Notes under the pieces: generated by a model
Database searches by the model: none
What the model was told of the DNA's origin: nothing
The model's input: only the letters and a program-made list of their open reading frames with translations
Shown: one piece after another, positions 23,429 to 49,530 of the stretch
How positions within the stretch are numbered: position 1 is the stretch's first letter
How the letters are laid out: every line of letters begins with the position of its first letter
Position numbers and translations under genes: made by a program
Origin: Chaetoderma sp. LZ-2023a
Lineage: Eukaryota > Mollusca > Caudofoveata > Chaetodermatida > Chaetodermatidae
Length of the DNA stretch: 64,000 bases
Direction: 5' to 3'
Assembly (NCBI GenBank): GCA_034401795.1
Contig: CM067365.1
Span: 17,103,166-17,167,165, forward strand

Positions 23429-23566
23429 TTAGGCTTCACTTTCATCTTTAGGTTCCAACTCGATTTGTTCTTCTTCGTCCAATATAGGCACAATGAGATT
23501 GTCTTTAGACATCAGTTTGAACTTGGTGACAAATAAAGTGAATCGTTTACACAGGGATGTCTCATT
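23429..23566 (-). CDS. MOB4: MOB4 last coding exon
   Basis: On the - strand: acceptor TTTTTCAG, 45 codons and stop TAA at 23429-23431. Begins [16 protein letters not shown], contains [12 protein letters not shown] and ends in an acidic tail. The reading into the upstream bases (residues before NETSL) is intron. Confidence 0.94.
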
Positions 23567-29500: not shown

Positions 29501-32500
29501 TCCCTATACGCTTTTCTGCGTTTAAGGCACTTAAACTTCTGAAACTGTAAGAAAAAACAGTCAGGATTTGACTAACCATCGGATAACACTACCGATGTAT
29601 GAGAGATGACCGAATGTCATATGCGCTCCCCCCCCCTCCTTCCTGGGAGGAAGAGTCGCCTGACCTCAATGTCCTATACGCTCTCTACGTACAAGTGCCA
29701 TGTACTACAGGACAGAGACGAAAAAACTCCATTTTCGTAACTCTCAACAATGAACCACACAAATACACAAACCATCACCATATTAATAACGGGTAATCGT
29801 GACAATACAATCAACAACGGACAACACATGAACAAGACTGACCTTGTTGAAAATGGCTGCTGACATCATCTTCCCATTGGTAAAGACTGATGCAGGCCCA
29901 AAAAAGTGGGTGTTTCCATAAATTAATTGTGAAATATATAAGTAATGAGGAAAAACCTCCTCAAAAAATATAAACCGAGTTATTTTTTCAAAATCGACAA
30001 GGCGAGAGGATTAGAGGTGTCACGGAGATAATGGTCTGTAAAACTTGACTCACAGTGCCACTGAGCCACCGACATAATATCATCCACAGGGACCCCATTA
30101 AATAGGGCCGTGGATGTCACTACGCCGCGGACACTGTGAGCCTTGGCCACGTCAACCTGCTTCCCGGTGGCGGATTTATGGCAAAACTGAATGCATTCCA
30201 CAATCCACCTGGAAATGGTGTCCTTAGAAGCCCTGCCATGGGGTTCAATATATGACAACCATAACGCTGACTGGTCGGTGCGCCACTCCGCCGTACGTTG
30301 TTTGTACCGGCGCAGCGCCCGGACGGGACACCATGCTTTAGAATTAGGATCATATCTAGTTAAAGCAGGCAAAATAATAGGTTGACCTGGATATTTCAAC
30401 GACTGATTTTTAGCCAAGAAATTAATCCTAGGTAGCAGCTTAAGGCCTTCCCCTGAAACCACAAAACGGTCATCCTCGGCTGATAAGGCATGAATTTCAC
30501 TCCTACGCCTAGCCGAGGCCGCAGCAATTAAAAACACAGTCTTCAGTGTTAATAGTTTCATAGAAATGGAACTAAGTGGTTCAAAAGGCTTATCACCTAG
30601 TACTTGAAGCACTAGCGATAAACTCCAAGACGGAATCACAGGTGGATTCCTTGGTCTTAGATTGCCCATGCCTTTAATTAATACATTTAATGTATTTACT
30701 TCATCACTTCCCCTCTTAGCCAAGCAAGGAATAACAGACATTAATGCTGACTTATAACCAGCAATAGAGTTAGGCTTGAGGCTATAGGCATCATAGAGGT
30801 GACAGAGGAAATCAGCTACTACTTGAATAGATGAATCCATTGGATCAATACATCTTTTTGAGCACCATTCTGCAAATCTGTTGATTTTATAATTATATGC
30901 TCTGGAGGTTGACCCCCTCCTGGCTTTGGCCATAAACATGGCTGCTTGCTCAGAAAAGCCCTCCTTAATTCTAGATTCCTTGACAACATCCACGCAGTCA
31001 ATCTGAACATTGACGGATTGTTGTGAAGGGCCTTGCCCTGGAAGATAATATCGTCCATCAGAGGCAGAGGAACCGGATTGCAGACCAGAAGGTCCAGCAG
31101 ATCCGTATACCATGATCGGCTTGGCCAATCCGGGGCGATCAGAAGCACTTGGCATTCCTCTTGTCTGATTTTCTGAAGAATTTTTGGAATCAGGATTGCT
31201 GGAGGGAATGCGTATGCATACATTCTCCCCCAGCTGATAGCTAACGCATCTGTTGCGAAAGCGCTTGGATCCGGAATCGGAGAGACGTACGTCGTCATCT
31301 TCGCATTCTTCTTCGTTGCGAACAAATCGATGTTGGGTTTCCCCCAATGGTCGAACAGACGATCCGCCACACATTGATTTAGTTGCCATTCCGTGGGTAA
31401 AACACTCATCCTTCGGCTCAATGAGTCTGCTAGCAGGTTTAACCTTCCCGGAATATGAACTGCTTTCAAGGTAATCTGGTGATCCAGACACCAACAAAGC
31501 AGTTTCCATGTCATCATACAGAGACTGGGCGACTTCGTTCCGCCCTGGCGGTTTATGTAAGTCACAACTGTTGAGTTGTCTGAACGAATAAGAACAATCT
31601 TGCCCTGAACTTTCTGTAAGAAATGTTCCAGGCCCAGGACTACTGCTTTTAGCTCCAGTAGATTTATATGTTCCTTTGACTGTTCCAGATTCCAAAGCCC
31701 TGATATCGTGTACTCTTCCAGGCAAGCTCCCCAGCCCTCCATCGATGCATCTGTATACACAGTCACCTGAGGGTGGGGAGGGGTTAGCAAAACCCCCGGC
31801 AAGAGATTCTCTGTATTCAACCACCATTGCAGGTGGTGAATGAGAGGCGCCAACACTGACACATTCGAGTCCAGCGAACCTGTACTCTGGGTCCATTGTG
31901 TCATGAGAAATAACTGGATCGGCCGCCTGCGTAAGGCGGCCTGAGGAATGACTGGTTCCAATGAAACCATCAACCCCAGCATTCTCAAGTAAACCCGTGC
32001 CAGGACATGACGACTGTCGCACACTGACTGAATTAATGAGATGAGTTTCTGAACTCTCTCCTGAGTAGGATAAACATATCCTGTCTCTAGATCGAAGAAC
32101 ATCCCCAGGTAAACAAACTTCTGGGATGGAGTCAGCTCTGATTTTGGGAAATTGATCATCCAGCCTAAGTCTGTGAGAGTTTTCAAAACAATCTCCAGAT
32201 TGGCCGACAAACTTTCCCGGGTGTGCGCTTTCAACAGCCAGTCGTCTATGTACGTGTGGACTGCTATGCTTCTCCTGCGGAGGTATGCTGTGATCGCAAG
32301 AACCACACGGGTGAAAACCCGAGGAGCCGTGGAAATTCCGAAGGGCAACACCCTGAATTCCCACTGTCTGCCCTGGAATGCAAATCTCAGGAAGCGACAG
32401 AAACTCCCGTGGATGGGGATGTGGAAATAAGCGTCCTTCAAATCTATCGACGCCGTCCACATCCCCCTCTCCAACCCCGCCAACACCGAGCGCACCGTTT

Positions 32501-35500
32501 CCATCTTGAAACTGGGCGTCTCGATGAACTTGTTCAATGGCTTGAGGTTGAGAATCGGTCTCCACCCTCCGGTGCGTTTTGTTACTAAGAACAGGGTTGA
32601 ATAGAAGCCCGGACACCTTTGTGCCGGCTGAATAGCTCCTTTTTGTACGAGGGAATTTATCTCCTCCTCGATACACAACCTTTGCTCTGGCTCTCTCGGA
32701 ATGGGAGTCCAGACTGGCACTAGAGACAGTCGCGACGGCGGGCCTGTCATCCACTCTGGATGATACCCGACGGAAAGCCATCGCAAGACTAAACGGTCCT
32801 GAGTTAACCGTTCCCACTCTTGCATGTGGTCGGCTAGCCGGCCTCCCACCGGTCCACCTAGGGACCGCGGTGGACACAAGGCATGCAAGAGCGGCACTGT
32901 CTCCGTCGCCATACACACCGGAGTGGTTCTTACCGCGGTAAGCGTCCTGTCAGGACCGATAACCACGCCCAGATCCTCGCGCGCCCCGCCCCGCCCCGCG
33001 CGCACCTTGGTGCGCGGGCGGCTGCCTGGCTGACGGCGCCTGAGGAACCTGCGCCCCCCTCGCTGCTGGCCGAATCGCACGCGGCCGAGGCCGACGCTGC
33101 GACGGTGGCTGGCCTCTGACTTGGCCAGCACCACCTCGAGCCTGCAGGGGACGATACGCAGGGGCCGCGGCGCGAACGTTAGCACGACGCAGCACCTCAA
33201 ACTGCTCGCGCAGCGCCCTCTGGTTATTCACCAGGGTGACCGTCTCCTGGAGGTGGCGACATCCCTCACCTCCAAAAAGACCAGGACCCGTCATAGGCGT
33301 ACGGAGTAGCCTATTGTACAGGTCCTGAGACGGGCACAGATTGTCCAGGGCAAACGTGCGTCTTGCCCGGACACTCCTGGTCACCGCCCGAGTCATACAG
33401 TCCAGCGCCAGGTTAATACCATCCTGGATGGCTCGCTGGACCGTGACCGGGCTTGGCTGGCGCGATGCGGATGCCGTTACTACCCCCTGTAACAGCTGGG
33501 AGACGTGGGACAGAGCGGCAATCGAAGCCCTCCCACTCTCCTCCGCATCACGCAACGCGGTATTCGCCGAACGCAACGCGTTCGAGCACAAGACCCCCGT
33601 GTCAGAACGGGAGCCTGGCCGCGCATCCTCACCCAAAGCCGCGCGGTCATCCACGCTGGGCTTGGGTACCACACCGTACCGCTGGTAATCCAGGGGCACG
33701 ATGCGACAACGCCTGGCCACCTCGCGAGGGGCCTTCGCGAGACGTCCACTCGAGTTAATGGACGACTCCGCCGCCTTGAACATGTCAACGACATGCTCCG
33801 CCAGCGGCAGAGAAGGCATAGCGTTAGCAGTCGGTTTGCCAGCTAACCACGGCCTGTGGTCACGCTGGCTAGGCGACTGCTCCACGGGCAGATCAGGCCT
33901 AACGCTCACCAACCACTGGCAAGCGTCAGACCAATCCTCCTCCGTGGCTAACTGCGAGCGCTCTACAAGACGGGGACCTTCGTCTTCCTCCTGAGCGCAA
34001 GCAGCAGAGCTTGACGGCGGGTACGCTGATACACCTGGCAAGCCAGGGAAAACATGCGGGCCTGATAGCACCGGCATGACAATATCACTGGTTTGACCAG
34101 GAGCAGGCACCGTGGCAGAGCGCGGGGTATATACCGCCCCACCACGGGCCCGGCCAGCACCAGCAACACCCTCGGCAAGCCGAGGTATGCGGTACCGCTG
34201 GCCATCAGCAGCGCCCTGGGCCACCACCTGAGCCGCGGACTTTACTCCAGGGTGAGTAAAACCGTGGAAGAAGCCGCCTGTATTCCCCGCGAGGGGTGCA
34301 CAAACTTCTTCATCCATGTCCACGTCGTCAGACGGCGACCCTAGCAGGTAATCCTCATCACCCTGGTCAGAAAGATTAGACCCCGGGTCAGCAAAGAGAG
34401 CTAACCCGGGCTGACCAGGAACGGTGCCATAGGAGGTACTGGCCACCGCGGCGTGCGGATACCCCTGGACTGATAAGCAGCCCGCGGGTTCCAGCGACAA
34501 CCGTCCACGGTCCCCTCTCGGCGCGGCAATAAGCCTGCTGCCAGGGTCGTGGAACGCCCCCTCTAATGGGGCCACCTCTGAATCGTCGAACAACGGAAGC
34601 GGTCTAAGGAAAACCGATCCAGAGGCGGGGATTACCTGCTCCGAAGCCGATGATGAGGACAGTAAAGGATTTGGTCCAGGAAGCATGCCACGAAGCAACC
34701 CTGGAACCAAATCCTTTATTGTCCTCTTCATCTCTCCCAACATCTCGGTCCGGAAGGCCTCCATATCCACCGCGGACGAGACCTTCCCCTTACCCTTCCT
34801 ACTTACAACCTCTCGTTTCCGCTTCTTCTTCTTCTCCTCCTCTACCACCTTGTCCGTCGCCTGTAAGCAGCACAAGAATTCGGACATTAACTCGCCCCCC
34901 CAGTGCTTACATATGTCACAATTAACCAAGGGACCACAAGGGCTACATTGATAGCACAGATGAGGCCAGAACTTTTCATGTAGAAAACGTCCACAGGACG
35001 CGCAACCCGGTCCCTGAAACAGGGCAAAGGACAAGGAGTATGAGCAAACTAGTTAAGCTTAGAGACTCAAACCAACTCAAAGAGAAGGAAAACGATCATA
35101 AAGATCAATATACATCAGAAACCAGCATAGCGACTTGAATTGCTGATAAATACATAGCCAGGCTGATTATGACGTCATTAATCCCGTGACAGGAAAAATT
35201 CGATCCCAACAAAACATCCAAGTGCAAGGACGAATTGTATGCTGAATGGATAAGTCGACTACACAACCATCAGATACATATAGATAACTCTTTTCTGGCA
35301 AAAATGTTAATTATCTCCCTTTGTTTGTTTACTATAATTAACATCACCACATTATCAATAACTAGATACCTGACACTTTGTATAGACAAACCATCCAACG
35401 TAACGAACCGGAGAACTCCACCATCTGCACGCCTCTTAACTCTCTCCACCTCATGGGGAAGGAATTGGATCAAGAGGGCAAAGTGAGAAGACCTTTATAC

Positions 35501-38500
35501 TAGGCCTCCAACTCACTGGACATAATTTTTCATTTGGTTAGATAACCTAACAGTGTTAGTAGGAAATGGAACCATGGTGGAGAGAAAACTAACTCTCTGC
35601 TGCTGTGATGTCACCACCTAGCGTCATACAGACCTGTGGACATAAACAGAAAGAGAAATTAGCCTTAGGTAGCACCGAGTTGACATAAACCAACTAACCA
35701 AGGCGCTTATCACGGTAAACGCGAGTCCCGGAAACACAATACACCGGGAAGAAAACTCGCTAATTTTACTAGAAGTCACCTGATTTAAAGGTCCTAAGTC
35801 CTCCTTTGGCGAAGTGTTCCTTCCTGCCATCCAAATCAGATACTATCACTCCAAAATAACACCACTTAAACAGTTTAAGAGTAGGAAAAAGCTATTGCAC
35901 AAAAAGACATGTGTGTTCTCTCTGCCAATAATCTAGCAAAGAGGAAGTGCTAGTCTGCGCATGCGCGGTGGTGGGGCTGGCATCCGCCAGACTACGCTCT
36001 GACTCCCTGCCCAGTAGGGGCACCTAACTGTTTTAAATCTGAGTGTTTATTGAGTGAAAGCCAATATTTAGCAATATCAAAAGTATTAGGGAGGTAAGTA
36101 TACTCTTGAAGTGAAAATCTTGAACTTGTGTCAGTGTGTTCAGTGTTTTTTACATAATAAATTCCTTAAAGCGAGTTCAGCACTGCCTGCTTCAAAATCT
36201 GTACACTGGATGGACACATACACAGATGGGAGCAAAATGACAGAAAAGGCGGCGACGGGGGGGTGGGGGGGGGGGGTAATATTGTCGCTTCCATTTCCTG
36301 GCTTGCCAGCCCTGATACTGAGAGATGGGTTATAGTGATGAGACAATGGATCCCTGTTAGTAAAACTCTTTAACTATCAGAATTGTTAAAAAAAATGTAA
36401 ACCTGATAGAAAATTTCCATTTGCAGACCAGATGATTTTTTTATTTATCACTGGAATGACTGGCTCAATTCTTGTGTTAAAATTTGAGCCAAATAGGATC
36501 AATAATTTTTAGGATATGTGTGCAGGCACACAGACTGACAGACTTGATCGCAATACACTCTTTCCCCTTAAAGAGCAAGGGTAATAATAATTCAAGACAT
36601 GACAAACTACATCCTAAGAATGTGTATCTGGCAATGAAATGATAATAAAATGTAACAGGATACAGGTATTTATTAGCTCACTAATCTCAAAAGATTTCTT
36701 CATAATCATTTTACCCGCGTCGCTAGGGTTACGGGTTAATGCGAGCATGGAGTGCTTCATCTTCATACTTGTTCTTAAGACATTTTTATACCTCTGTTTC
36801 CACTGCAGGAATATGGGTGGACACTTGCCGGTGGGGTCCCGAAGATGTGTGCCAATTTTGGAGCCAAAAACTAAAATGCAACACCAACATTATTTTCAAA
36901 ATGGTCACTCAACACATTTTCAATAAGTCTGGTTTTATTGAAGATGTGCGCCAATTTGCTGTCAAAATCCAAAAACACAACACCAACACCTTTCAACAAC
37001 ATTGCTTTCAGAAGTGAGACTTTTAATACAATTTTCACTGGATCTACTGGAGTGAGTTTATTGAAACATGGGTGGATGTATGTCTGCGGGGTCCCGAGGA
37101 CTTGTTCCAATTGTGGGTCATAAGCTGAAAAGCAACAGTAAAAACTTTCAACGACATTTTTTCCAAAAGAGACACATTTGACCTCAAGCCAGCCAGATTG
37201 AAAAACATAGCAGCAGGTATTGGACAAATTCGTCCTTGTTACATAACACGCACCTGTAGCTTTACTGCTAACCCATTCAACTCCATACAGAATTGTCTGA
37301 AAGAAAGCACAGGAATTGTAAAACAGTACAAATATGGGATACATGTATGTTAATTATTATCAACTGTGTCGTAAATAAAAACAATCTACATGTAAGTTAA
37401 TCAGTGATACAATGTAACTAGCATTGTTGGGTCTAGGGGTGGGATAATTCACCTTCCCAGAGTCTCCATCTATCAATCTGATGTCGTATGACATCATAAT
37501 CAGCTAAGCGGCGTGTAGGATGTCATCATAATCATTACATAATAAATTAATAGTCCGACACGTTGTACGAATTGTATGGCTCTGCTATTTAATAAACATG
37601 CTGTGGAATATTTTGAAACTGCCATAGGCAGCAACAGCACCCAGGCAAATTTGTTCCAAAATATTTTATAGCTTACCTGAGTGTATAGTTTTCAGGAAAT
37701 TGATAGTCAGGGAGCTCAGAGATTGATCGATCCCAACACGGACATGGTGTGGGTGGAGCTTAGATTGAGATGGGTAGGGCATAGCTAAAAGTGGAAAGGT
37801 CCATTAGATTCCATTACTTAATTGGTAGTACTACTCAAATCCTCCAGGAGGAATGTTTGCCTTCAGATTGAGATATGGGGAATTTATCCGTGAAATGGTT
37901 AAGCACTGTTTATAACCGCTCCGTGTAGATTAAGAAATTATCATTTTTCAATATCTTAAGCGGGGAACATAAGACTATGATTAAATCGAGACAGTCATTC
38001 TAGCTGTAAATTTTTAAATTTCCCCTCTGTCTCGATCTCCTCTGATTTTCTCTTCAAAAGATATTTCAAAAGGCCAGAAGCTTCTCGTGATCTGTTCATA
38101 CCATTGACACTGCTGCAAGAGATGTTCTGCTGATTCTTCTGCCTGCTGACACTCACAAAGTGCAGAATCTGTAATCTTGAGACAGTGAAGATGTGCATTG
38201 AGACGATTGTCACCAGTCCTCAATCTGAACATACATGTCTGATCCTCCCTACTGAGGCTGTGTATTGCATCATTATGCGGCCTACTGGTGGTTCTTGTGG
38301 CTTTAATGATATGCTTCAGTTCTTCAAAGTCATCCTCACGGTTGAATCGTTCCTTGTTTGACCCTTTCTTAGCCAGTTGATCAGCTTTATTATTTCCTGA
38401 TATGGGTATTTTAAGACCAAAATGCTGACAATGCATTGTTGGCTGGATTTACCATTAAAAGATTATTATCAATACACATGTAATTGACTATCTTCTTCCA

Positions 38501-41500
38501 TAATACCGTGAATCTGATCTTCTTCCATACTACCCTGAATCTGAGGAAAGCTGCGTTCAATGGTGATGAGAACTTTAATTGAAAAGAATCTAAATGAAAG
38601 TTATTGCGGCTACAGGTAACAATAGCCTTCTGCTACCGGTAAGTTGCTTCAAAATTATCATCTCCAGGATTAAGATAATGTAATATAAAAATATTATCAA
38701 CATATTAAAATACTGAAATTTCTTAGAATTTGAATTAATCCTTTAACACTTAACCTGCCAATGTCTCGATTTCAAAACAACTATACTGGAAAGCTGTTGA
38801 ATATTTTGAAACTAATTCAAGTGGAAACTGTTGCTGCCACCAGCTCCAAGTCAAATTAGTTTCAGAATATTCTGGGCATCATAAAGAATTTGTCATTTCT
38901 AGCCTGTCGACGCTAAATCGTTACGATACGGGAATGTCTTAAAATTTGAATTACAATGTAAAATACTAGAAAGTGATATGATTTAAATTAAAATGCACCT
39001 TAGATGTTCGTATTTCCAAACACCCTCATCTTGTCCTTCTGGTGCATTGAGCACTTCATCTATGTTAGTGTAGTCTTTACGAATAGACTGCTGAATGAAC
39101 TGTCAAAGTAAAACATTAAAACTATGTTAGTGTAGTCCTTACGAATAGACTGCTGAATGAACTGATTAAAACTATGTTAGTGTAGTCCTTACGAATAGAC
39201 TGCTGAATGAACTGATTAAAACTATGTTAGTGTAGTCCTTACGAATAGACTGCTGAATGAACTGATTAAAACTATGTTAGTGTAGTTCTTACGAATAGAC
39301 TGCTGAATGAACTGATTAAAACTATGTTAGTGTAGTCCTTACGAATAGACTGCTGAATGAACTGATTAAAACTATGTTAGTGTAGTCCTTACGAATAGAC
39401 TGCTGAATGAACTGATTAAAACTATGTTAGTGTAGTCCTTACGAATAGACTGCTGAATGAACTGATTAAATCTAAGTTAGTGTAGTCCTTACGAATAGAC
39501 TGCTGAATGAACTGATTAAAACTATGTTAGTGTAGTCCTTACGAATAGACTGCTGAATGAACTGATTAAAACTATGTTAGTGTAGTCCTTACGAATAGAC
39601 TGCTGAATGAACTGATTAAAACTATGTTAGTGTAGTCCTTACGAATAGACTGCTGAATGAACTGATTAAAACTATGTTAGTGTAGTCCTTACGAATAGAC
39701 TGCTGAATGAACTGATTAAAACTATGTTAGTGTAGTCCTTACGAATAGACTGCTGAATGAACTGATTAAAACTATGTTAGTCTAGTCCTTACGAATAGAC
39801 TGCTGAATGAACTGATTAAAACTATGTTAGTCTAGTCCTTACGAATAGACTGCTGAATGAACTGATTAAAACTATGTTAGTGTAGTCCTTACGAATAGAC
39901 TGCTGAATGAACTGATTAAAACTATGTTAGTGTAGTCCTTACGAATAGACTGCTGAATGAACTGATTAAAACTATGTTAGTGTAGTCCTTACGAATAGAC
40001 TGCTGAATGAACTGATTAAAACTATGTTAGTGTAGTCCTTACGAATAGACTGTTGAATGAACTGATTAAAACTATGTTAGTGTAGTCCTTACGAATAGAC
40101 TGCTGAATGAACTGATTAAAACTATGTTAGTGTAGTCCTTACGAATAGACTGCTGAATGAACTGATTAAAACTATGTTAGTGTAGTCCTTACGAATAGAC
40201 TGCTGAATGAACTGATTAAAACTATGTTAGTGTAGTCCTTACGAATAGACTGCTGAATGAACTGATTAAAACTATGTTAGTGTAGTCCTTACGAATAGAC
40301 TGCTGAATGAACTGATCAAAACTATGTTAGTGTAGTCCTTACGAATAGACTGCTGAATGAACTGATCAAAACAATGTTAGTGTAGTCCTTACGAATAGAC
40401 TGCTGAATGAACTGATTAAAACTATGTTAGTGTAGTCCTTACGAATAGACTGCTGAATGAACTGATTAAAACTATGTTAGTGTAGTCCTTACGAAAAGAC
40501 TGCTGAATGAACTGATTAAAACTATGTTAGTGTAGTCCTTACGAATAGACTGCTGAATGAACTGATTAAAACTATGTTAGTGTAGTCCTTACGAATAGAC
40601 TGCTGAATGAACTGATTAAAACTATGTTAGTGTAGACCTTACGAATAGACTGCTGAATGAACTGATTAAAACTATGTTAGTGTAGTCCTTACGAATAGAC
40701 TGCTGAATGAACTGATTAAAACTATGTTAGTGTAGTCCTTATGATTAGACTGCTGAATGAACTGATTAAAACTATGTTAGTGTAGTCCTTACGAATAGAC
40801 TGCTGAATGAACTGATTAAAACTATGTTAGTGTAGTCCTTACGAATAGACTGCTGAATGAACTGATTAAAACTATGTTAGTGTAGTCCTTACGAATAGAC
40901 TGCTGAATGAACTGATTAAAACTATGTTAGTGTAGTCCTTACGAATAGACTGCTGAATGAACTGATTAAAACTATGTTAGTGTAGTCCTTACGAATAGAC
41001 TGCTGAATGAACTGATTAAAACTATGTTAGTGTAGTCCTTACGAATAGACTGCTGAATGAACTGATTAAAACTATGTTAGTGTAGTCCTTACGAATAGAC
41101 TGCTGAATGAACTGATTAAAACTATGTTAGTGTAGTCCTTACGAATAGACTGCTGAATGAACTGATTAAAACTATGTTAGTGTAGTCCTTACGAATAGAC
41201 TGCTGAATGAACTGATTAAAACTATGTTAGTGTAGTCCTTACGAATAGACTGCTGAATGAACTGATTAAAACTATGTTAGTGTAGTCCTTACGAATAGAC
41301 TGCTGAATGAACTGATTAAAACTATGTTAGTGTAGTCCTTACGAATAGACTGCTGAATGAACTGATTAAAACTATGTTAGTGTAGTCCTTACGAATAGAC
41401 TGCTGAATGAACTGATTAAAACTATGTTAGTGTAGTCCTTACGAATAGACTGCTGAATGAACTGATTAAAACTATGTTAGTGTAGTCCTTACGAATAGAC

Positions 41501-44500
41501 TGCTGAATGAACTGATTAAAACTATGTTAGTGTAGTCCTTACGAATAGACTGCTGAATGAACTGATTAAAACTATGTTAGTGTAGTCCTTACGAATAGAC
41601 TGCTGAATGAACTGATTAAAACTATGTTAGTGTAGTCCTTACGAATAGACTGCTGAATGAACTGATTAAAACTATGTTAGTGTAGTCCTTACGAATAGAC
41701 TGCTGAATGAACTGATTAAAACTATGTTAGTGTAGTCCTTACGAATAGACTGCTGAATGAACTGATTAAAACTATGTTAGTGTAGTCCTTACGAATAGAC
41801 TGCTGAATGAACTGATCAAAACTATGTTAGTGTAGTCCTTACGAATAGACTGCTGAATGAACTGATTAAAACTATGTTAGTGTAGTCCTTACGAATAGAC
41901 TGCTGAATGAACTGTTATAAAATTAAAACAAAAAGGCAAATTAAAGCAATAAATTGTCATATAATTCAACTCTGAATGTAAAGAAACAAAGCATGTACAT
42001 CTGACAGGATTCATACAAACTTGAAAAGTACTTGAATTTTGACATGTGCCTTGAAAAGCCTTGAGTTTGAGAATTCACTTGAAAATTGCTTTAATGCATT
42101 GAAAAGCCCTTTTGAATTTAACATTTCATCCCAGATTATCTTCATTGAGTACCAAACTGTTGCTATGAATCATCAGTAAAAATAAGGAATTGCCTTCTAT
42201 CTAATATTAAAACATGCATTAGCAGTCTCTAAAGTGGATCCCCGTATTTCAGTTGCATTGTCAGGGGATTCCTGTATTACTTACTTATCTACTTACTTAT
42301 CATATACTACCTTGATAGGCCACTTAGCCTGTAGGTAGATAATACAGTAAATGCATTGCACCGTATAAGTTTCTAAGATAGGCAATGTTTACTGCAGAGC
42401 ACCTGTTGTGCATAGGTTCTTGTATATACCAAAAGGTAGTCCAATATATATCTAATTGGTTTTTAAAGCTATTTAAGCTTGGGGAATTTACGACAGTTTC
42501 AGGTAACCCATTCCAGTTGTTGGTGGTATTGTCAGAGGATTCTACATCCCAGTTAACATCGTCGTGTCGTNNNNNNNNNNNNNNNNNNNNNNNNNNNNNN
42601 NNNNNNNNNNNNNNNNNNNNNNNNNNNNNNNNNNNNNNNNNNNNNNNNNNNNNNNNNNNNNNNNNNNNNNNNNNNNNNNNNNNNNNNNNNNNNNNNNNNN
42701 NNNNNNNNNNNNNNNNNNNNNNNNNNNNNNNNNNNNNNNNNNNNNNNNNNNNNNNNNNNNNNNNNNNNNNNNNNNNNNNNNNNNNNNNNNNNNNNNNNNN
42801 NNNNNNNNNNNNNNNNNNNNNNNNNNNNNNNNNNNNNNNNNNNNNNNNNNNNNNNNNNNNNNNNNNNNNNNNNNNNNNNNNNNNNNNNNNNNNNNNNNNN
42901 NNNNNNNNNNNNNNNNNNNNNNNNNNNNNNNNNNNNNNNNNNNNNNNNNNNNNNNNNNNNNNNNNNNNNNNNNNNNNNNNNNNNNNNNNNNNNNNNNNNN
43001 NNNNNNNNNNNNNNNNNNNNNNNNNNNNNNNNNNNNNNNNNNNNNNNNNNNNNNNNNNNNNNNNNNNNNNTTGTCAGAGGATTCTACATCCCAGTTCTCA
43101 CCCTTTATTTCCCACCCCATGTCCAGTCCGGTATCGGGCCCTTGAAAATTTTGAAATTACGGCCATAGTAGTCTTTGAAAGGTCCTTGGATGAAAACATC
43201 TGATGGCTGTATGAGCCCTGTCTGACCTCAACAGACACTATCAGCTGTCTACATGTATATAAAGACCAGTTTTATCTGGTTCCCCCAGGGGTGACCTTTA
43301 AAGACAAGTTTCATTGTATTTGTACATAGCGTGATGGTGCGGCTAATATTGTTAGGAATATCCGGCAGAAGTGTGTGTACATCGCGATCGATTATTTAAG
43401 AATAATCGTGATTACTCGAGTAATCGGCCTGGTTACAAATTAAACTGATATAACAACAAAGGTATATCAACTATGAAAGCTGCAATGGTGTTTAGAAATG
43501 TCCATAGTTGCAGGCCAAGAGAAGACTATTTTTGAAAATGTATAACTAGAATGCCTGGCTCGAGCACCGAGCCACACATTCCAATGATACATTTTCAAAA
43601 ATAGTCTTCTCTTGCCCTTCATATGGACATGCATTCGATGAGCAAAATGTAAATAAAAAGGTAGATTTTGAAATATTTTATGCAGTGGAATTATTCACGA
43701 TTATTCGATTATTTCATTTTTAATCATATAAATTCAGGATTTAAAAAATAATCGCGATTTTCGATTTAATCACGTAATCATGCAAGTCTAGTTTGTCAGG
43801 TAAATATTGTTGACTTGAAGTCTATTATATATGCAGGGTTCATACACTTTTCTATGTTTGAAATTCCATTACTTTTCCTGACAAAAATTAATAAATTCCA
43901 TGATTTCCAAGAATTATTATCTAGTAGATTTGTGTTTATGTCATGTAGCTACATAAATTACGATCCACGCTATTCTGCAAAAATGTCTGAATATTGTGTC
44001 TTACAACAACCACGCCAACACCTTGTTTTTGATACGCTGTTGCTATAATTGTTATTGCATATGGGTGATGACGGTAATTTATGCCTAAATATTTCTTTTA
44101 GTGTTCATGATTATCATTTTCTATGACTTTTCCATGATCTATGAAAAAAATGCTGATTTTCCATGACTTTCCAGGCCTGGCATGCCTGGTATTGAAATTT
44201 TCAAATTCCATGACTTTCCAGGATTTCCATGACCAATACGAATGCTGTATATGGTTATAATTGTCAAATTTGTCAGGAAAATTTTTGCAAAAATTATATC
44301 ACATGTGCATAGTTTGATATGTGTGAATGCTTTAACATTTGTGAAGGGAAAGACTTCTTTATTCCCAGCCAGGCGAAATTTAAAAGAATTTCACCCAGGA
44401 GCCTTACTGGAAATGAGACCACCATAGTTTTATGTTGGCCTAACTTTCCTAAGATTCAAAATGTTCAACAGTGTAAATGGTTTGAATTTGAGATAATAGA

Positions 44501-45261
44501 TTTCAAAGCATTTTAAAATCAGAATATTAAAAGCTTATCTTCACTTTCAAATCTTAAATAGATATGTGTATGCTGCATTGCTGGATGTGTCAACACTTTA
44601 ATCCTCATATTAGCCAAAACGGCTTCTGTAGCAGTCTTGAGAAATGTCCATTTGCAGACCAAGAGAATACTATTTTTGAAAATTTATCCCTGGAACAACT
44701 AGTTCGATAACCGAGCCAGTCATTTCAGTGGCAAATTTTCCAAAAAACAGTTCTCTTGATCTGCAAATGGACATTTTCTATGAGAAATTGAAATTTAAAA
44801 AAATTAATTTGAGGGTTAAATTCTCAAACTGGCTTACAGTTCTCCCACATAACAATGCATTTAAAACTTAGAACTCTTTCCCTCATTCGTTACATTTGTA
44901 AACCATTGTCATGTGCAAAACCTGCACTTCAAATCCTGAAGTATTAGGCATCCATTAACATTTAAGTCGCCATAAAACAGTTTTTGCAGTAATCTTGAGA
45001 AATGTCGATCAATTAGCAAACCATGAAATTATTTTTTTTAATTTACCACTGGAATGACTGGCTTGATGACCGAACCAGTCATTCCAGTGTGAACATTTTA
45101 AAAATAACCTTTCTTGGTCTGCAAATGGACACTTCTTATGAGAAAATTAAAATTTTTTGGAGCTAATTTGAGGGTGAAAATGCTATTTATAGACTCACTT
45201 GCTGAACAGCCAAGGTGCTGTCCATCTCTTCAAATGTCTCCTCCGGCCAGCTGCACCAGTC
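23429..45261 (-). CDS. MOB4: MOB4 (phocein), STRIPAK subunit; seven exons, first exon not found
   Basis: MOB-family adaptor that joins striatin, PP2A and GCK-III kinases in the STRIPAK complex. On the - strand the exons are 45261-45199, 39099-38999, 37296-37254, 28559-28473, 26806-26727, 26026-25915 and 23566-23429. All have GT-AG borders and fitting phases, and together they give 207 residues ending ...EPKDESEA. The family is usually about 225 residues, so about 20 N-terminal residues are missing. The MOB zinc ligands are present: Cys pair in [10 protein letters not shown] and His pair in FSHAYFHH. The IVPIL tail typical of phocein is kept. The gene spans at least 22 kb, largely because introns hold a DIRS element and a 2.8-kb satellite. 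It converges with PAN2. Confidence 0.94.
24550..24765. repeat. H1 palindromic MITE copy, near-perfect hairpin
   Basis: Arms match over about 70 bases around ggctcgattatcgagcc. Left gcagagcaagagaagagt is mirrored exactly by actcttctcttgctctgc; both differ from the family consensus gcagaccaagagaagact. Intron of MOB4. Confidence 0.92.
25300..25800 (-). repeat. Composite MITE, copy 7 (reverse), split by a younger insertion
   Basis: Left part 25300-25380 and right part 25600-25800 of a composite MITE; the H2 hairpin lies at 25640-25724. A 219-base element at 25381-25599 separates them. Confidence 0.75.
25381..25599. mobile_element. Small hAT-like insertion inside a MITE
   Basis: Ends CAGGGTGTTTGCTAG and CTGGCTAACAGCCTG are imperfect inverted repeats. 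Flanks cgttgttg (25373-25380) and cattgttg (25600-25607) match at 7 of 8 bases, as expected for an hAT-type 8-base target duplication. Non-coding. Confidence 0.72.
25915..26026 (-). CDS. MOB4: MOB4 exon (zinc His pair)
   Basis: On the - strand: acceptor CTACTTCAG, completes Arg, then [18 protein letters not shown] and [19 protein letters not shown], donor GTGAGA. HAYFHH supplies the zinc His pair of the MOB fold. Confidence 0.95.
26085..26175. repeat. H2-like palindrome (decayed)
   Basis: aaaactattttgaaaacag, actgaaagtcatttctgac and catttctgac-like reverse blocks; only partly paired. MOB4 intron. Confidence 0.5.
26727..26806 (-). CDS. MOB4: MOB4 exon
   Basis: On the - strand: acceptor GTTTCAG, 26 codons plus two bases ([18 protein letters not shown] then NSNKYFPS), donor GTAAAG. 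Almost identical to other animal MOB4. Confidence 0.94.
27078..28170. repeat. Diverged tandem repeat, about 150-175-bp unit, seven copies
   Basis: Units start near 27078, 27247, 27423, 27571, 27721, 27891 and 28057. Each has gacctcaatatcattgtg, ttgatataaggaagcatgtg, tttagtcccaatagggtgaa and gagatataag. Several units open with tgacctttgacc. MOB4 intron. Confidence 0.88.
28473..28559 (-). CDS. MOB4: MOB4 exon (zinc Cys pair)
   Basis: On the - strand: acceptor CATACAG, 29 codons [17 protein letters not shown] then [12 protein letters not shown], donor GTAAGA. Contains the two zinc-binding Cys and the family's [18 protein letters not shown] block. The next intron upstream carries the DIRS retrotransposon. 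Confidence 0.94.
28640..28835. repeat. H1 palindromic MITE copy
   Basis: Starts at ttaaccctttaacactcat; arms taccactggagtgactagc and gagccagtcattccagtgg. Lies 80 bases upstream (in transcript sense) of a MOB4 exon. Confidence 0.85.
28875..29055. repeat. H1 palindromic MITE copy (diverged)
   Basis: gaatgtccatttgcaggttc and agcctgcaaatggtcatttc arms with a decayed centre. The DIRS element is inserted a few bases further on, at 29062. Confidence 0.75.
29062..29283 (+). repeat. DIRS element left inverted terminal repeat
   Basis: From taaacgaaatctagg through cttacctccctaatac, the gcgcatgcgcaga block and ctagattattggc. It pairs with 35920-36116, except that the outermost 40 or so bases differ between the two ends, as in DIRS-1. 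Confidence 0.9.
29347..29446. other. DIRS internal complementary region
   Basis: 29347-29400 is the reverse complement of the left end (ending atttcgttta); 29401-29446 is the reverse complement of the right end (starting tttcacttcaagag). In DIRS-1 this region is thought to act as a splint for joining the ends of the reverse-transcribed DNA into a circle. Confidence 0.88.
29980..32916 (-). CDS. DIRS tyrosine recombinase open frame (978 codons; recombinase in last about 320)
   Basis: The conserved recombinase region starts near Met at 30939 ([19 protein letters not shown]) and ends at 29980. Catalytic residues of the tyrosine recombinase family are visible: first Arg in [12 protein letters not shown], HxxR in AHSVRGVV, then Trp/His in AQWHCESSF and Tyr in TDHYLRD. 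The roughly 650 codons upstream stay open over the reverse transcriptase gene in another frame and show no domain; the real start is uncertain and may lie close to 30939. The enzyme would integrate the circular DNA form. It overlaps the reverse transcriptase frame by at least 120 bases. Confidence 0.85.
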   Translation of the reverse strand: MYGDGDSAALACLVSTAVPRWTGGRPASRPHARVGTVNSGPFSLAMAFRRVSSRVDDRPAVATVSSASLDSHSERARAKVVYRGGDKFPRTKRSYSAGTKVSGLLFNPVLSNKTHRRVETDSQPQAIEQVHRDAQFQDGNGALGVGGVGEGDVDGVDRFEGRLFPHPHPREFLSLPEICIPGQTVGIQGVALRNFHGSSGFHPCGSCDHSIPPQEKHSSPHVHRRLAVESAHPGKFVGQSGDCFENSHRLRLDDQFPKIRADSIPEVCLPGDVLRSRDRICLSYSGESSETHLINSVSVRQSSCPGTGLLENAGVDGFIGTSHSSGRLTQAADPVISHDTMDPEYRFAGLECVSVGASHSPPAMVVEYRESLAGGFANPSPPSGDCVYRCIDGGLGSLPGRVHDIRALESGTVKGTYKSTGAKSSSPGPGTFLTESSGQDCSYSFRQLNSCDLHKPPGRNEVAQSLYDDMETALLVSGSPDYLESSSYSGKVKPASRLIEPKDECFTHGMATKSMCGGSSVRPLGETQHRFVRNEEECEDDDVRLSDSGSKRFRNRCVSYQLGENVCIRIPSSNPDSKNSSENQTRGMPSASDRPGLAKPIMVYGSAGPSGLQSGSSASDGRYYLPGQGPSQQSVNVQIDCVDVVKESRIKEGFSEQAAMFMAKARRGSTSRAYNYKINRFAEWCSKRCIDPMDSSIQVVADFLCHLYDAYSLKPNSIAGYKSALMSVIPCLAKRGSDEVNTLNVLIKGMGNLRPRNPPVIPSWSLSLVLQVLGDKPFEPLSSISMKLLTLKTVFLIAAASARRRSEIHALSAEDDRFVVSGEGLKLLPRINFLAKNQSLKYPGQPIILPALTRYDPNSKAWCPVRALRRYKQRTAEWRTDQSALWLSYIEPHGRASKDTISRWIVECIQFCHKSATGKQVDVAKAHSVRGVVTSTALFNGVPVDDIMSVAQWHCESSFTDHYLRDTSNPLALSILKK
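30819..33200 (-). CDS. DIRS reverse transcriptase / RNase H / methyltransferase-like protein
   Basis: Open frame of 793 codons; the true start is probably inside, since the first 80 or so residues overlap the end of gag in a different frame. Reverse transcriptase spans about residues 170-400: [42 protein letters not shown] and the catalytic YIDDW near residue 317 (32252-32241). RNase H spans about 475-600: [22 protein letters not shown] and LLADSLSR supply the four acidic residues. The C-terminal part ([39 protein letters not shown]) is the methyltransferase-like region typical of DIRS polymerases. No stop or frameshift. Confidence 0.92.
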   Translation of the reverse strand: MRCCVVLTFAPRPLRIVPCRLEVVLAKSEASHRRSVGLGRVRFGQQRGGRRFLRRRQPGSRPRTKVRAGRGGAREDLGVVIGPDRTLTAVRTTPVCMATETVPLLHALCPPRSLGGPVGGRLADHMQEWERLTQDRLVLRWLSVGYHPEWMTGPPSRLSLVPVWTPIPREPEQRLCIEEEINSLVQKGAIQPAQRCPGFYSTLFLVTKRTGGWRPILNLKPLNKFIETPSFKMETVRSVLAGLERGMWTASIDLKDAYFHIPIHGSFCRFLRFAFQGRQWEFRVLPFGISTAPRVFTRVVLAITAYLRRRSIAVHTYIDDWLLKAHTRESLSANLEIVLKTLTDLGWMINFPKSELTPSQKFVYLGMFFDLETGYVYPTQERVQKLISLIQSVCDSRHVLARVYLRMLGLMVSLEPVIPQAALRRRPIQLFLMTQWTQSTGSLDSNVSVLAPLIHHLQWWLNTENLLPGVLLTPPHPQVTVYTDASMEGWGACLEEYTISGLWNLEQSKEHINLLELKAVVLGLEHFLQKVQGKIVLIRSDNSTVVTYINRQGGTKSPSLCMMTWKLLCWCLDHQITLKAVHIPGRLNLLADSLSRRMSVLPTEWQLNQCVADRLFDHWGKPNIDLFATKKNAKMTTYVSPIPDPSAFATDALAISWGRMYAYAFPPAILIPKILQKIRQEECQVLLIAPDWPSRSWYTDLLDLLVCNPVPLPLMDDIIFQGKALHNNPSMFRLTAWMLSRNLELRRAFLSKQPCLWPKPGGGQPPEHIIIKSTDLQNGAQKDVLIQWIHLFK
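32950..35034 (-). CDS. DIRS gag-like protein (694 aa)
   Basis: First frame of the element. The N-terminus is Cys-rich ([24 protein letters not shown]), suggesting zinc binding. A basic [11 protein letters not shown] stretch follows near residue 65, probably nuclear-targeting. The middle is acidic and low complexity, and the C-terminus is rich in Arg and Gly ([10 protein letters not shown]... [15 protein letters not shown]), as in nucleic-acid-binding gag tails. CpG-rich DNA (about 32900-34600), unlike the surrounding AT-rich introns. Identified as gag by position and composition; no catalytic domain. Confidence 0.75.
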   Translation of the reverse strand: MSFALFQGPGCASCGRFLHEKFWPHLCYQCSPCGPLVNCDICKHWGGELMSEFLCCLQATDKVVEEEKKKKRKREVVSRKGKGKVSSAVDMEAFRTEMLGEMKRTIKDLVPGLLRGMLPGPNPLLSSSSASEQVIPASGSVFLRPLPLFDDSEVAPLEGAFHDPGSRLIAAPRGDRGRLSLEPAGCLSVQGYPHAAVASTSYGTVPGQPGLALFADPGSNLSDQGDEDYLLGSPSDDVDMDEEVCAPLAGNTGGFFHGFTHPGVKSAAQVVAQGAADGQRYRIPRLAEGVAGAGRARGGAVYTPRSATVPAPGQTSDIVMPVLSGPHVFPGLPGVSAYPPSSSAACAQEEDEGPRLVERSQLATEEDWSDACQWLVSVRPDLPVEQSPSQRDHRPWLAGKPTANAMPSLPLAEHVVDMFKAAESSINSSGRLAKAPREVARRCRIVPLDYQRYGVVPKPSVDDRAALGEDARPGSRSDTGVLCSNALRSANTALRDAEESGRASIAALSHVSQLLQGVVTASASRQPSPVTVQRAIQDGINLALDCMTRAVTRSVRARRTFALDNLCPSQDLYNRLLRTPMTGPGLFGGEGCRHLQETVTLVNNQRALREQFEVLRRANVRAAAPAYRPLQARGGAGQVRGQPPSQRRPRPRAIRPAARGAQVPQAPSARQPPAHQGARGAGRGARGSGRGYRS
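35920..36116 (-). repeat. DIRS element right inverted terminal repeat
   Basis: Reverse complement of the left terminal repeat apart from the extreme end, which here is gtatactcttgaagtgaaa. The 5' end of the element in transcript sense; its promoter would be expected in this repeat. Confidence 0.9.
36130..36300 (+). pseudogene. LINE RNase H fragment
   Basis: On the + strand, [21 protein letters not shown] then [12 protein letters not shown] resembles the start of a LINE RNase H domain (YTDGS). It then runs into a G run at 36257-36276. Starts 15-20 bases after the DIRS right end. Confidence 0.6.
36330..37240. other. MOB4 intron with H1 half-copy and a diverged direct repeat
   Basis: 36395-36475 holds a left arm of H1 (ccatttgcagaccaga, atcactggaatgactggc). 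36805-37175 holds two or three diverged units with gggtggacactt/gggtggatgtatg, ggtcccgaagatgtg and aacaacattgctttcag. Function unknown. Confidence 0.55.
37254..37296 (-). CDS. MOB4: MOB4 exon (43 bases)
   Basis: On the - strand: acceptor GTCTTTCAG-like ending at 37297, one base completing Arg, then [14 protein letters not shown], donor GTGCGT. Matches the [14 protein letters not shown] block of MOB4 exactly except one Leu to Met change. Confidence 0.9.
37450..37807 (-). repeat. Composite MITE, copy 8 (reverse orientation)
   Basis: Starts attcaccttcccagag and ends taaaagtggaaaggtcc; contains gtatgacatcataatc, an H2 palindrome remnant (37600-37670) and the gatcgatcccaac block. MOB4 intron. Confidence 0.78.
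38014..38436 (-). pseudogene. LINE RNase H C-terminal fragment
   Basis: A 140-codon open frame on the - strand: [18 protein letters not shown] is the last RNase H motif (GNNKAD), followed by [19 protein letters not shown] and [19 protein letters not shown], a Cys/His pattern typical of LINE polymerase C-termini. Isolated fragment in a MOB4 intron; not a host gene. Confidence 0.82.
38788..38875. repeat. H2 palindrome copy (loop shortened)
   Basis: gctgttgaatattttgaaac pairs with gtttcagaatattc; centre gtggaaactgttgctg/ccagctcc. Lies about 125 bases downstream of the MOB4 exon at 38999. Confidence 0.7.
38999..39099 (-). CDS. MOB4: MOB4 exon (source of the 50-bp satellite)
   Basis: On the - strand: acceptor TTTTACTTTGACAG, 33 codons plus two bases ([17 protein letters not shown] then [16 protein letters not shown]), donor GTGCAT. 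The first 40 bases of this exon, with one private base difference, form most of the 50-bp tandem unit that fills 39121-41913 just upstream in transcript sense. Confidence 0.93.
39121..41913 (-). repeat. 50-bp satellite derived from the MOB4 exon acceptor region (55 full units plus a 43-base end unit)
   Basis: Every unit is exactly 50 bases; the phase never slips over 2.79 kb and only scattered single-base changes occur. In MOB4 sense the unit is 40 bases copied from the start of the exon 39099-38999 (TTCATTCAGCAGTCTATTC, GTAAGGACTACACTAACATAG) plus a 10-base linker TTTTAATCAG that ends in AG. The distal end copy at 41913 is preceded by a strong pyrimidine tract and ATAACAG, likely the ancestral acceptor. 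The near copy keeps TTTGACAG and the rest of the exon. Not a CRISPR array: units are head to tail with no spacers. Confidence 0.97.
41914..42570. other. MOB4 intron, weak repeats before the assembly gap
   Basis: 42010-42110 has ttgaaaagtacttgaa-type motifs of an old non-coding transposon. 42270-42570 contains ttacttacttatctacttac and a stretch ending gtcagaggattctacatccc, which is repeated beyond the gap. No gene seen. Confidence 0.55.
42571..43070. other. Assembly gap, 500 N
   Basis: Exactly 500 N, probably a placeholder length. Open frames across it are meaningless. The same sequence attgtcagaggattctac lies at both edges. Confidence 1.
43370..43792. mobile_element. hAT-like MITE, second copy with internal H1 hairpin
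   Basis: Shares atcgatcgattattt-type motifs and the end gcaagtcta (compare TAGGCTTGC of the 17114 copy), in opposite orientation. An H1 hairpin (43495-43640) lies at the same internal place as in the 17114 copy, so H1 is a part of this MITE family. The left end is decayed. Confidence 0.75.
43830..44240. repeat. Dispersed non-coding repeat, ttccatgactttccagg type
   Basis: cagggttcatacact at the left and several copies of aattccatgactttccagg to the right. Motif-rich non-autonomous transposon, probably hAT-related (inference from motif style only). Confidence 0.6.
44600..44820. repeat. H1 palindromic MITE copy
   Basis: ccatttgcagaccaagagaa to ttctcttgatctgcaaatgg, with centre ctagttcgataaccgagcc. 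MOB4 intron. Confidence 0.82.
44955..45175. repeat. H1 palindromic MITE copy
   Basis: ccactggaatgactggcttg and gaaccagtcattccagtg; ends 24 bases from the MOB4 exon at 45199, on its donor side. Confidence 0.82.
45199..45261 (-). CDS. MOB4: MOB4 exon (first found)
   Basis: On the - strand: acceptor ctctttag, 21 codons [21 protein letters not shown], donor GTGAGT. It matches the conserved [17 protein letters not shown] block of MOB4. Phase 0 at both ends. The start codon must be in an upstream exon at higher coordinates, which I could not find. Confidence 0.9.
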
Positions 45262-47339: not shown

Positions 47340-49530
47340 TAAAGCAAGAGGGTTATCATGTCACGTAAAAAATAGTCCGTAAAAACCCACACCGCTACTG
47401 GACTACCGTCATGTTGTCGACGGAAACTCACACCGCTACTGTTATGTTGTCGACGGAAACTCACACCGCTACCGTCATGTTGTCGACGGAAACTCACACC
47501 GCTACTGTTATGTTGTCGACGGAAACTCACACCGCTACTGTTATGTTGTCGACGGAAACTCACACCGCTACTGTTATGTTGTCGACGGAAACTCACACCG
47601 CTACTGTTATGTTGTCGACGGAAACTCACACCGCTACTGTTATGTTGCCGACGGAAACTCACACCGCTACTGTTATGTTGTCGACGGAAACTCACACCGC
47701 TACCGTCATGTTGTCGACGGAAACTCACACCGCTACTGTTATGTTGTCGACGGAAACTCACACCGCTACCGGTATGTTGTCGACGGAAACTCACACCGCT
47801 ACTGTTATGTTGTCTACGGAAACTCACACCGCTACCGGTATGTTGTCGACGGAAACTCACACCGCTACCGTTATGTTGTCGACGGAAACTCACACCGCTA
47901 CTGTTATGTTGTCGACGGAAACTCACACCGCTACTGTTATGTTGTCGACGGAAACTCACACCGCTACCGTCATGTTGTCGACGGAAACTCACACCGCTAC
48001 TGTTATGTTGTCGACGGAAACTCACACCGCTACCGTCATGTTGTCGACGGAAACTCACACCGCTACTGTTATGTTGTCTACGGAAACTCACACCGCTACC
48101 GGTATGTTGTCGACGGAAACTCACACCGCTACCGTTATGTTGTCGACGGAAACTCACACCGCTACTGTTATGTTGTCGACGGAAACTCACACCGCTACTG
48201 TTATGTTGTCGACGGAAACTCACACCGCTACTGTTATGTTGTCGACGGAAACTCACACCGCTACTGTTATGTTGTCGACGGAAACTCACACCGCTACTGT
48301 TATGTTGTCGACGGAAACTCACACCGCTACTGTTATGTTGTCGACGGAAACTCACACCGCTACCGTTATGTTGTCGACGGAAACTCACACCGCTACCGTT
48401 ATGTTGTCGACGGAAACTCACATCGCTACCGTCATGTTGTCGACGGAAACTCACACCGCTACTGTTATGTTGTCGACGGAAACTCACACCGCTACTGTTA
48501 TGTTGTCGACGGAAACTCACACCGCTACTGTTATGTTGTCGACGGAAACTCACACCGCTACTGTTATGTTGTCGACGGAAACTCACACCGCTACCGTCAT
48601 GTTGTCGACGGAAACTCACACCGCTACTGTTATGTTGTCGACGGAAACTCACACCGCTACTGTTATGTTGTCGACGGAAACTCACACCGCTACTGTTATG
48701 TTGTCGACGGAAACTCACACCGCTACCGTCATGTTGTCGACGGAAACTCACACCGCTACTGTTATGTTGTCGACGGAAACTCACACCGCTACTGTTATGT
48801 TGTCGACGGAAACTCACACCGCTACTGTTATGTTGTCGACGGAAACTCACACCGCTACTGTTATGTTGTCGACGGAAACTCACACCGCTACTGTTATGTT
48901 GTCGACGGAAAATCACACCGCTACTGTTATGTTGTCGACGGAAACTCACACCGCTACTGTTATGTTGTCGACGGAAACTCACACCGCTACTGTTATGTTG
49001 TCGACGGAAACTCACACCGCTACCGTTATGTTGTCGACGGAAACTCACACCGCTACCGTCATGTTGTCGACGGAAACTCACACCGCTACTGTTATGTTGT
49101 CGATGGAAACTCACACCGCTACTGTTATGTTGTCGACGGAAACTCACACCGCTACCGTCATGTTGTCGACGGAAACTCACACCGCTACTGTTATGTTGTC
49201 GACGGAAACTCACACCGCTACCGTCATGTTGTCGACGGAAACTCACACCGCTACTGTTATGTTGTCAACGGAAACTCACACCGCTACTGTCATGTTGTCG
49301 ACGGAAACTCACACCGCTACTGTTATGTTGTCGACGGAAACTCACACCGCTACTGGACTACTGTTATGTTGTCGACGGAAACTCAGTTGAATAGAGCCGT
49401 GGGTGCCACTACGCCATGGACACTGTCATCCTTGGCCAAATCTACTTGCCTACTGGTTATAGATTTGTTGCAAAATTGGATACATTCCACAATCCACCTT
49501 GAAAACATACTCAACCACTGAGCGCTGTAA
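47340..49530 (-). pseudogene. DIRS tyrosine recombinase fragment split by a minisatellite
   Basis: On the - strand 49490-49390 reads [12 protein letters not shown] and DSVHGVVAPTALFN, matching [12 protein letters not shown] and [16 protein letters not shown] of the intact DIRS element. 47400-47340 reads VAVWVFTDYFLRD, matching [17 protein letters not shown]. Between them lies a 2-kb minisatellite. The catalytic HxxR is destroyed (AHSVR became DDSVH), and a TGA follows LFN. Inactive. Confidence 0.85.
47400..49385. repeat. 33-bp minisatellite, about 60 copies
   Basis: Unit atgttgtcgacggaaactca then caccgctactgtt. Variants alternate actgtt / accgtc / accgtt / accggt. The period is a multiple of three and lacks stops, so frames of over 600 codons are open on both strands (MLSTETHTATV on +, SFRRQHNSSGV on -). 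Both are artefacts of the array. The unit matches the segment of the DIRS recombinase between FNG and the catalytic Tyr. Confidence 0.97.

Follow-up and report, generated by a model that had tools for sequence, protein, structure and literature searches.

Tandem copies of intron-exon boundaries are known from amphioxus, where they are called mirages and where Adh3 is among the named loci (PMC3087553); the amphioxus papers credit the name to Canestro et al. 2002 (PMC3087553, PMC3902484). Mirage loci comprise Adh3, the globin genes BflGb6 and BflGb9, and troponin C, with PGBD5 as a likely further case (PMC3087553, PMC3902484), and the lancelet PGBD5 paper itself cites the globin, Adh and troponin C mirages (PMC3902484). 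According to their authors, reverse transcription PCR and Adh3 data suggest that splicing is regular at such loci, while length instability was reported as well, at Adh3 also in somatic tissue (PMC3087553). These statements, like all others taken here from the literature, follow the accessible parts of the sources. Here we describe an array of intron-exon border copies upstream of exon 3 of the gene MOB4 in the caudofoveate mollusc Chaetoderma sp. LZ-2023a. It lies in a stretch of 64,000 nucleotides (nt), hereafter the window (assembly GCA_034401795.1, contig CM067365.1, positions 17,103,166 to 17,167,165). Coordinates are positions in the window unless a contig (C6, C7, C10 or C18 of this genome, G000) is given.

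Border copies upstream of MOB4 exon 3

On the minus strand, 57 copies of the start of MOB4 exon 3 follow each other head to tail, of which 56 are intronic, while the last is the real exon, intact at 39099-38999. Tandem Repeats Finder places the array at 39115-41922, with a period of 50, 56.1 copies and 99% matches, copy number and array length being those assembled in one assembly. Its parts are:

38999 to 39099, minus strand: MOB4 exon 3, intact, 101 nt, GT-AG borders
39100 to 39121, minus strand: 22-nt linker TTTTAATGTTTTACTTTGACAG before the real exon, with the acceptor that is expected to be used
39122 to 41911, minus strand: intronic array with a period of 50, in which the opening 40 nt of MOB4 exon 3 occur 56 times, with TTTTAATCAG as linkers
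41912 to 41945, minus strand: distal acceptor with its T-rich tract GCCTTTTTGTTTTAATTTTATAACAG

Each unit consists of an intron-like linker ending in CAG and 40 nt from the start of exon 3. An initial annotation of the window had described a satellite made from the MOB4 acceptor and exon start, in the same sense as MOB4 and with linkers ending in AG. The anatomy of the minus-strand units bears this out, as AG precedes all 56 intronic copies. Its count of 55 exact 50-base units is correct for length, since all 55 full units measure 50 nt. However, only 44 of them are identical to the consensus; each of the other 11 departs from it by one or two substitutions, and 14 of the 2750 positions are affected overall. 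In the same way, every intronic copy does hold the 40-nt exon start, yet none of the 56 matches the real exon in full: 39 positions agree in 47 copies, 38 in eight and 37 in one. All 56 copies read G at nt 24 where the exon reads A, a silent difference (CGT AAG against CGT AAA). With this change the copies read GTAAG and the exon GTAAA; the copy at 40761 reads ATAAG, and GT is present at this site in 55 of the 56 copies. The unit layout given before also needs correction at both edges. The final unit before the exon is 62 nt long, with a linker of 22 nt instead of the 10 nt found elsewhere. At the distal edge, the copy has its first base at 41911 and its AG at 41913-41912. The distal copy adjoins ordinary intron sequence and has the motif TTTTAAT in common with the unit linker.

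Among the scored genome matches the 50-nt unit was found nowhere else: all 28 lie inside C7:17142225-17145090. Screening of the six remaining MOB4 exons of the window (exon 2 and exons 4 to 8) showed no border copies there. The array is present in the assembled sequence, it is a satellite derived from the acceptor and the start of a MOB4 exon, and chance is no serious alternative explanation for 56 copies.

In many ways this array resembles the amphioxus mirages. These too are minisatellite-like border copies beside an intact exon, in which many units keep AG or GT and the edge copies are less homogenised, and BflGb6 likewise copies an intron's 3' end together with the 5' part of the exon (PMC3087553). 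At MOB4 the unit spans the host's own intron-exon border (a linker ending in CAG plus 40 nt, 37-39 of them identical), the array lies in an intron and runs into an intact exon, and both dinucleotides are kept in many units (AG in 56 of 56, GT in 55 of 56). The host differs, as it is a spiralian, with a Hox cluster of spiralian and not amphioxus-like composition, whereas the reported mirages belong to cephalochordates. The scale differs as well. The MOB4 array and a second array before a CDK4/6-like exon, described below, count 56 and at least 56 copies with units of 50 and 55 nt. In contrast, two BflGb6 haplotypes have 6 and 3 copies, and the units measure 150-160 nt in BflGb6, 157 nt in BflGb9 and 10-72 nt in Adh3 (PMC3087553). 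Judged by its sequence, the MOB4 array fits the structural definition of a mirage; its kind would already be known, while host and scale appear to be new. The remark in the initial annotation that no satellite made from an acceptor and exon start had been described thus has to be withdrawn, given the mirages of amphioxus (PMC3087553, PMC3902484). No mirage outside cephalochordates was found among the matches listed in a search of open-licence literature other than bioRxiv preprints, covering titles and abstract openings; an ascidian paper among the matches (PMC7710358) has the word solely in a reference on another matter.

Minisatellites at splice sites are known from human genes, too. In the variable number tandem repeat (VNTR) of ABCA7 intron 18, as at MOB4, an intronic minisatellite unit carries a splice signal, and one unit can be retained in the mRNA, which leads to a frameshift (PMC5954066). 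However, the ABCA7 signal is a donor and not an acceptor, and that repeat is polymorphic with measured effects on splicing (PMC5954066), whereas the MOB4 array is known from its sequence alone. The minisatellite of IFI6 (6-16) provides several splice donors (Turri et al. 1995, as cited in PMC4526556; reference entry also in PMC2572611). Its units act as alternative splice sites on the donor side and are said to be used, a role that the MOB4 units could only potentially have. While GT is present in 55 of 56 MOB4 copies, the copied exon border is an acceptor, in contrast to the ABCA7 and IFI6 type. Finally, internal tandem repeats occur at exon-intron boundaries in human segmental duplications, where these minisatellites alter gene structure and splicing (PMC2812944). 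Those repeats belong to recent paralogs and average four copies of 30 base pairs (bp), whereas MOB4 is an intact gene with one locus found and 56 copies.

Splice signals and predicted splicing outcomes

We gauged acceptor strength by the number of pyrimidines at positions -20 to -5 and by the distances to the nearest upstream AG and to a CTAAC branch-like site. In the consensus inner unit, these distances are 10 and 15 nt, respectively, and 8 of 16 positions are pyrimidines. The acceptor at 39100 has its nearest upstream AG at 22 nt, the CTAAC site at 27 nt and 11 of 16 pyrimidines, while the distal acceptor has 11 of 16 as well and its nearest upstream AG at 58 nt. For comparison, the seven acceptors of MOB4 exons 2 to 8, that at 39100 included, range from 22 to 76 nt for the AG and from 10 to 14 pyrimidines. 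By these measures, the inner copies make weak-looking acceptors, whereas those at either edge look good. To call all of them near-identical acceptors, as had been done, is therefore too strong for the inner units.

If any of the 56 upstream acceptors were joined to the true exon 3 donor, translation would stop after 50-74 amino acids instead of the normal 227. The predicted stop comes after 70 amino acids for 52 acceptors, after 50 for two, and after 72 and 74 for one each; the distal acceptor would require an exon of 2913 nt. The earlier expectation that use of the distal acceptor truncates MOB4 is thus confirmed and extends to every upstream copy. The related claim that only the acceptor at 39100 yields a full protein holds as long as a single acceptor is used, but it overlooks a predicted pseudoexon of 69 nt that would run in frame from the AG of one unit to the GTAAGG of the next. 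Its frame is open in 52 of 55 pairs of adjacent units; by sequence prediction it would add 23 residues and leave the remainder of MOB4 in frame. One example is:

41693 to 41761, minus strand: predicted 69-nt pseudoexon from the AG of one unit to the GTAAGG of the next, in frame and open, 23 amino acids

Gene context, a second array and the chance expectation

The eight exons of MOB4 together comprise 227 codons without an internal stop, with GT-AG borders at introns 1 to 7. Besides exon 3, these are:

C7:17170407-17170466, beyond the window: MOB4 exon 1
45199 to 45261, minus strand: MOB4 exon 2
37254 to 37296, minus strand: MOB4 exon 4
28473 to 28559, minus strand: MOB4 exon 5
26727 to 26806, minus strand: MOB4 exon 6
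25915 to 26026, minus strand: MOB4 exon 7
23429 to 23566, minus strand: MOB4 exon 8 with the stop codon

The peptide of exons 2 and 3 matches the phocein/MOB4 chain 7k36_H (E 7e-24). A search of the MOB4 protein against its own genome (2.44 Gb, 2753 contigs) gave six exon matches, every one at this locus. A second intact MOB4, which according to the initial annotation would have undermined its reading, was not found by this protein search, which small exons or a diverged copy could escape.

Two further repeats lie in MOB4 introns. Intron 4 holds a GC-rich retroelement with a reverse transcriptase domain (29980-35052, minus strand), which we take to be DIRS-like from a recombinase-like stretch. 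Intron 1 holds 59 copies of a 33-nt minisatellite (47403-49355), the minus-strand unit of which contains GTGAGT and AACAG. We rejected the latter as a second MOB4 mirage, as a MOB4 exon was seen at neither of its ends.

Beyond MOB4, 85 kinase exon loci (45 + 20 + 20) were tested for tandem copies of their own borders. They comprise the 30 best Pkinase matches (L021-L050) and 15, 20 and 20 smaller ones (L051-L065, L082-L121), picked from 134 matches listed (133 of 911 candidates scored). Many of the 30 best have long open frames and are probably intron-poor. The screened span was the hidden Markov model match plus 60 bp, so that borders farther from the match would be missed; as a control, both known arrays were recovered with 400-bp flanks. 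A clear second array was present at just one of the 85 loci, which belongs to the 55 smaller matches:

C6:74597107-74597280, minus strand: CDK4/6-like exon preceded by the second array (stretch C6:74596400-74600400, L063 and L066)

The best solved relatives of this exon are CDK6 (E 5e-25) and then CDK4 (8e-21). The unit of 55 nt consists of TATTTTAG, the first 27 nt of the exon and a linker. At least 56 intronic copies are present, as the array is still running at the end of the fetched stretch, and it contains a higher-order repeat of 1430 nt with 98.4% identity. The real border is the only TTTCAG there, while the 56 copied borders read TTTTAGGA in 45 cases, TTTTAGAA in four, TTTTAGCA in one and TATTAGGA in two, with four lacking TAG.

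At one further locus (L113, C10:95003767-95004728), whose exon has STK25, MST4 and STK24 as best solved relatives, the terminal part of the preceding intron carries, 66 bp upstream, a single 28-nt copy of exon sequence (89%; 364-391 and 430-457 of the reverse complement). It is a possible remnant of an old two-copy boundary, judging from this repeat, and was left out of the count of clear cases. Four other candidates were discarded: L090 has a direct repeat within the intron and away from the exon, and L027, L087 and L097 gave inverted matches.

How often should an array capture an exon border by chance? Around MOB4, 13 arrays with a period of at least 15 and at least three copies occur in 122.8 kilobases (kb), one per 9.4 kb, and their summed unit length is 0.30% of that sequence, the same share of borders being predicted to fall within a starting unit. 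With array starts placed anywhere, 85 exons should include 0.52 such borders, with a probability of 0.40 for at least one, and one was seen. Without the MOB4 array itself the expectation is 0.45 (probability 0.36), and for the 55 smaller exons alone it is 0.33 (probability 0.28). These figures are rough and come from one region. With about 0.5 borders expected and one seen, chance capture is enough to explain the frequency.

With regard to the host genome, a homeobox search (best 150 candidates) placed 11 Hox genes in a single run at C6:50.67-53.45 Mb (L069-L079), which spreads over 2.8 Mb and has Post1 on the opposite strand. We presume these to be Post1, Post2, two Lox2/Lox4-like genes, Antp, Lox5 with its KLTGP motif, and Hox5 to Hox1. 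The cluster is a spiralian set and not that of amphioxus. A cephalochordate host, considered at first in view of the amphioxus mirages, was rejected given this cluster and a genome of 2.44 Gb; a search for GFP gave no match, which weighs little as its controls stayed silent as well. Separately, two matches of a COX1 search lie on contig C18 (L067, L068) and are presumably bacterial-type cytochrome oxidases; this contig is likely contaminant or symbiont sequence, and the two matches were discarded as a taxon marker.

Origin of the array and competing explanations

Taken together, we consider it likely that the MOB4 array is a mirage-type minisatellite, in which a boundary was duplicated and amplified and with which splicing copes without any dedicated function. 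A short stretch made up of the intron end and the adjoining 40 nt of exon 3 would have been duplicated in tandem, and this duplicate may then have been amplified and homogenised into the 56 intronic copies. The motif TTTTAAT shared by the distal copy and the linker hints that the intron end in the first duplication came from the distal side, and the distal acceptor may be where the intron originally ended. Geometrically, the last copy alone continues into the whole exon, and thus the gene would have stayed intact. The real 101-nt exon is presumably defined as a whole by its own donor together with the nearest good acceptor. The inner copies should be poor acceptors, with a short pyrimidine tract, a second AG close upstream and a branch-like site too near, and the longer last linker would mend all three weaknesses. 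The proximal edge would win because only its acceptor makes a 101-nt exon with the real donor, while the distal one needs either 2913 nt or an inner pseudoexon. If the distal acceptor or unit pseudoexons are sometimes misused, the outcome may be nonsense-mediated decay or MOB4 with 23 extra residues. Given about one minisatellite per 9.4 kb around MOB4, chance should place the start of some arrays on an exon border, so that a dedicated function is unnecessary.

Several points weigh against this explanation. The distal acceptor equals that at 39100 in pyrimidines (11 of 16) and exceeds it in its AG-free stretch (58 versus 22 nt). Acceptor strength thus fails to explain why it should be ignored, which leaves exon definition to carry this step. 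In the CDK4/6-like array, 49 of 56 copied acceptors read TTTTAG followed by GA or AA, while the real one reads TTTCAG followed by GA; weak signals are consequently no general answer. Furthermore, the null for chance capture was drawn from one region that includes the MOB4 array, and a gap of 500 N lies about 650 bp from the array.

Alternatively, the array might be a regulatory decoy, the acceptors or GTAAGG donors of which divert the splicing machinery to unproductive events; array length would then determine how much MOB4 protein is made. The early stop predicted for all 56 upstream acceptors with the true donor, the GT that 55 of 56 copies carry at the GTAAG site and the strong-looking distal acceptor would suit such a role. 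There is also a precedent in the 25-bp intronic VNTR of human ABCA7, whose unit starts with a splice donor and whose length correlates with skipping of the next exon (PMC5954066). However, the inner acceptors look weak, amphioxus mirages were reported as not disturbing regular splicing (PMC3087553), and the frequency in the exon sample fits chance capture. Thus, we regard a decoy as unlikely. Even broader, and in our opinion still somewhat harder to credit, is the idea that in this spiralian minisatellites with dozens of acceptor copies precede exons in a large number of genes, among them conserved core genes, and that fast-changing array length tunes productive splicing. If true, array length would act on MOB4, the CDK4/6-like kinase and similar genes as a dial that is hypermutable, heritable and possibly somatic.

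It is very unlikely, in our estimate, that the array is an assembly artefact or grossly mis-sized, that is, that the assembler expanded a boundary which in the animal had undergone just a few duplications. In favour of an artefact, the gap mentioned above measures exactly 500 N (42571-43070), and 26 nt (TTGTCAGAGGATTCTACATCCCAGTT) occur in both of its flanks, as would be seen where two contigs were left unmerged. The divergence among units is very low (14 of 2750), and the BflGb6 mirage was reported to be aberrant in the draft amphioxus assembly (PMC3087553). In addition, the 1430-nt block of the CDK4/6-like array might be real or an assembly doubling. Nevertheless, the MOB4 array lies in sequence free of N, continuous with exon 3 on one side and with about 650 nt of other sequence on the opposite side. 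Its variants are scattered, with a few neighbours sharing one (units 31-32 and 42-43), and a second array exists elsewhere with more diverged units (87% versus 99% identity at a shift of one unit). That units are really included as 69-nt pseudoexons, which would lengthen MOB4 by 23 residues or multiples thereof, is scarcely credible in spite of the frame open in 52 of 55 adjacent pairs, as the donor context of TTC before GTAAGG lacks the AG that usually precedes GT in the splice donor consensus, the inner acceptors look weak and the 23 residues would interrupt a conserved stretch of MOB4.

In the literature found, and as far as its accessible parts go, mirages were previously reported from amphioxus only, with few copies where numbers are given (globins, PGBD5). 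Two arrays of more than 50 copies each in a spiralian genome, one of them in an intact gene with a single locus found, suggest that mirages can occur outside chordates and can exceed a handful of repeats. Such arrays lend themselves to testing how the right acceptor is chosen for an exon with dozens of near-copies upstream.

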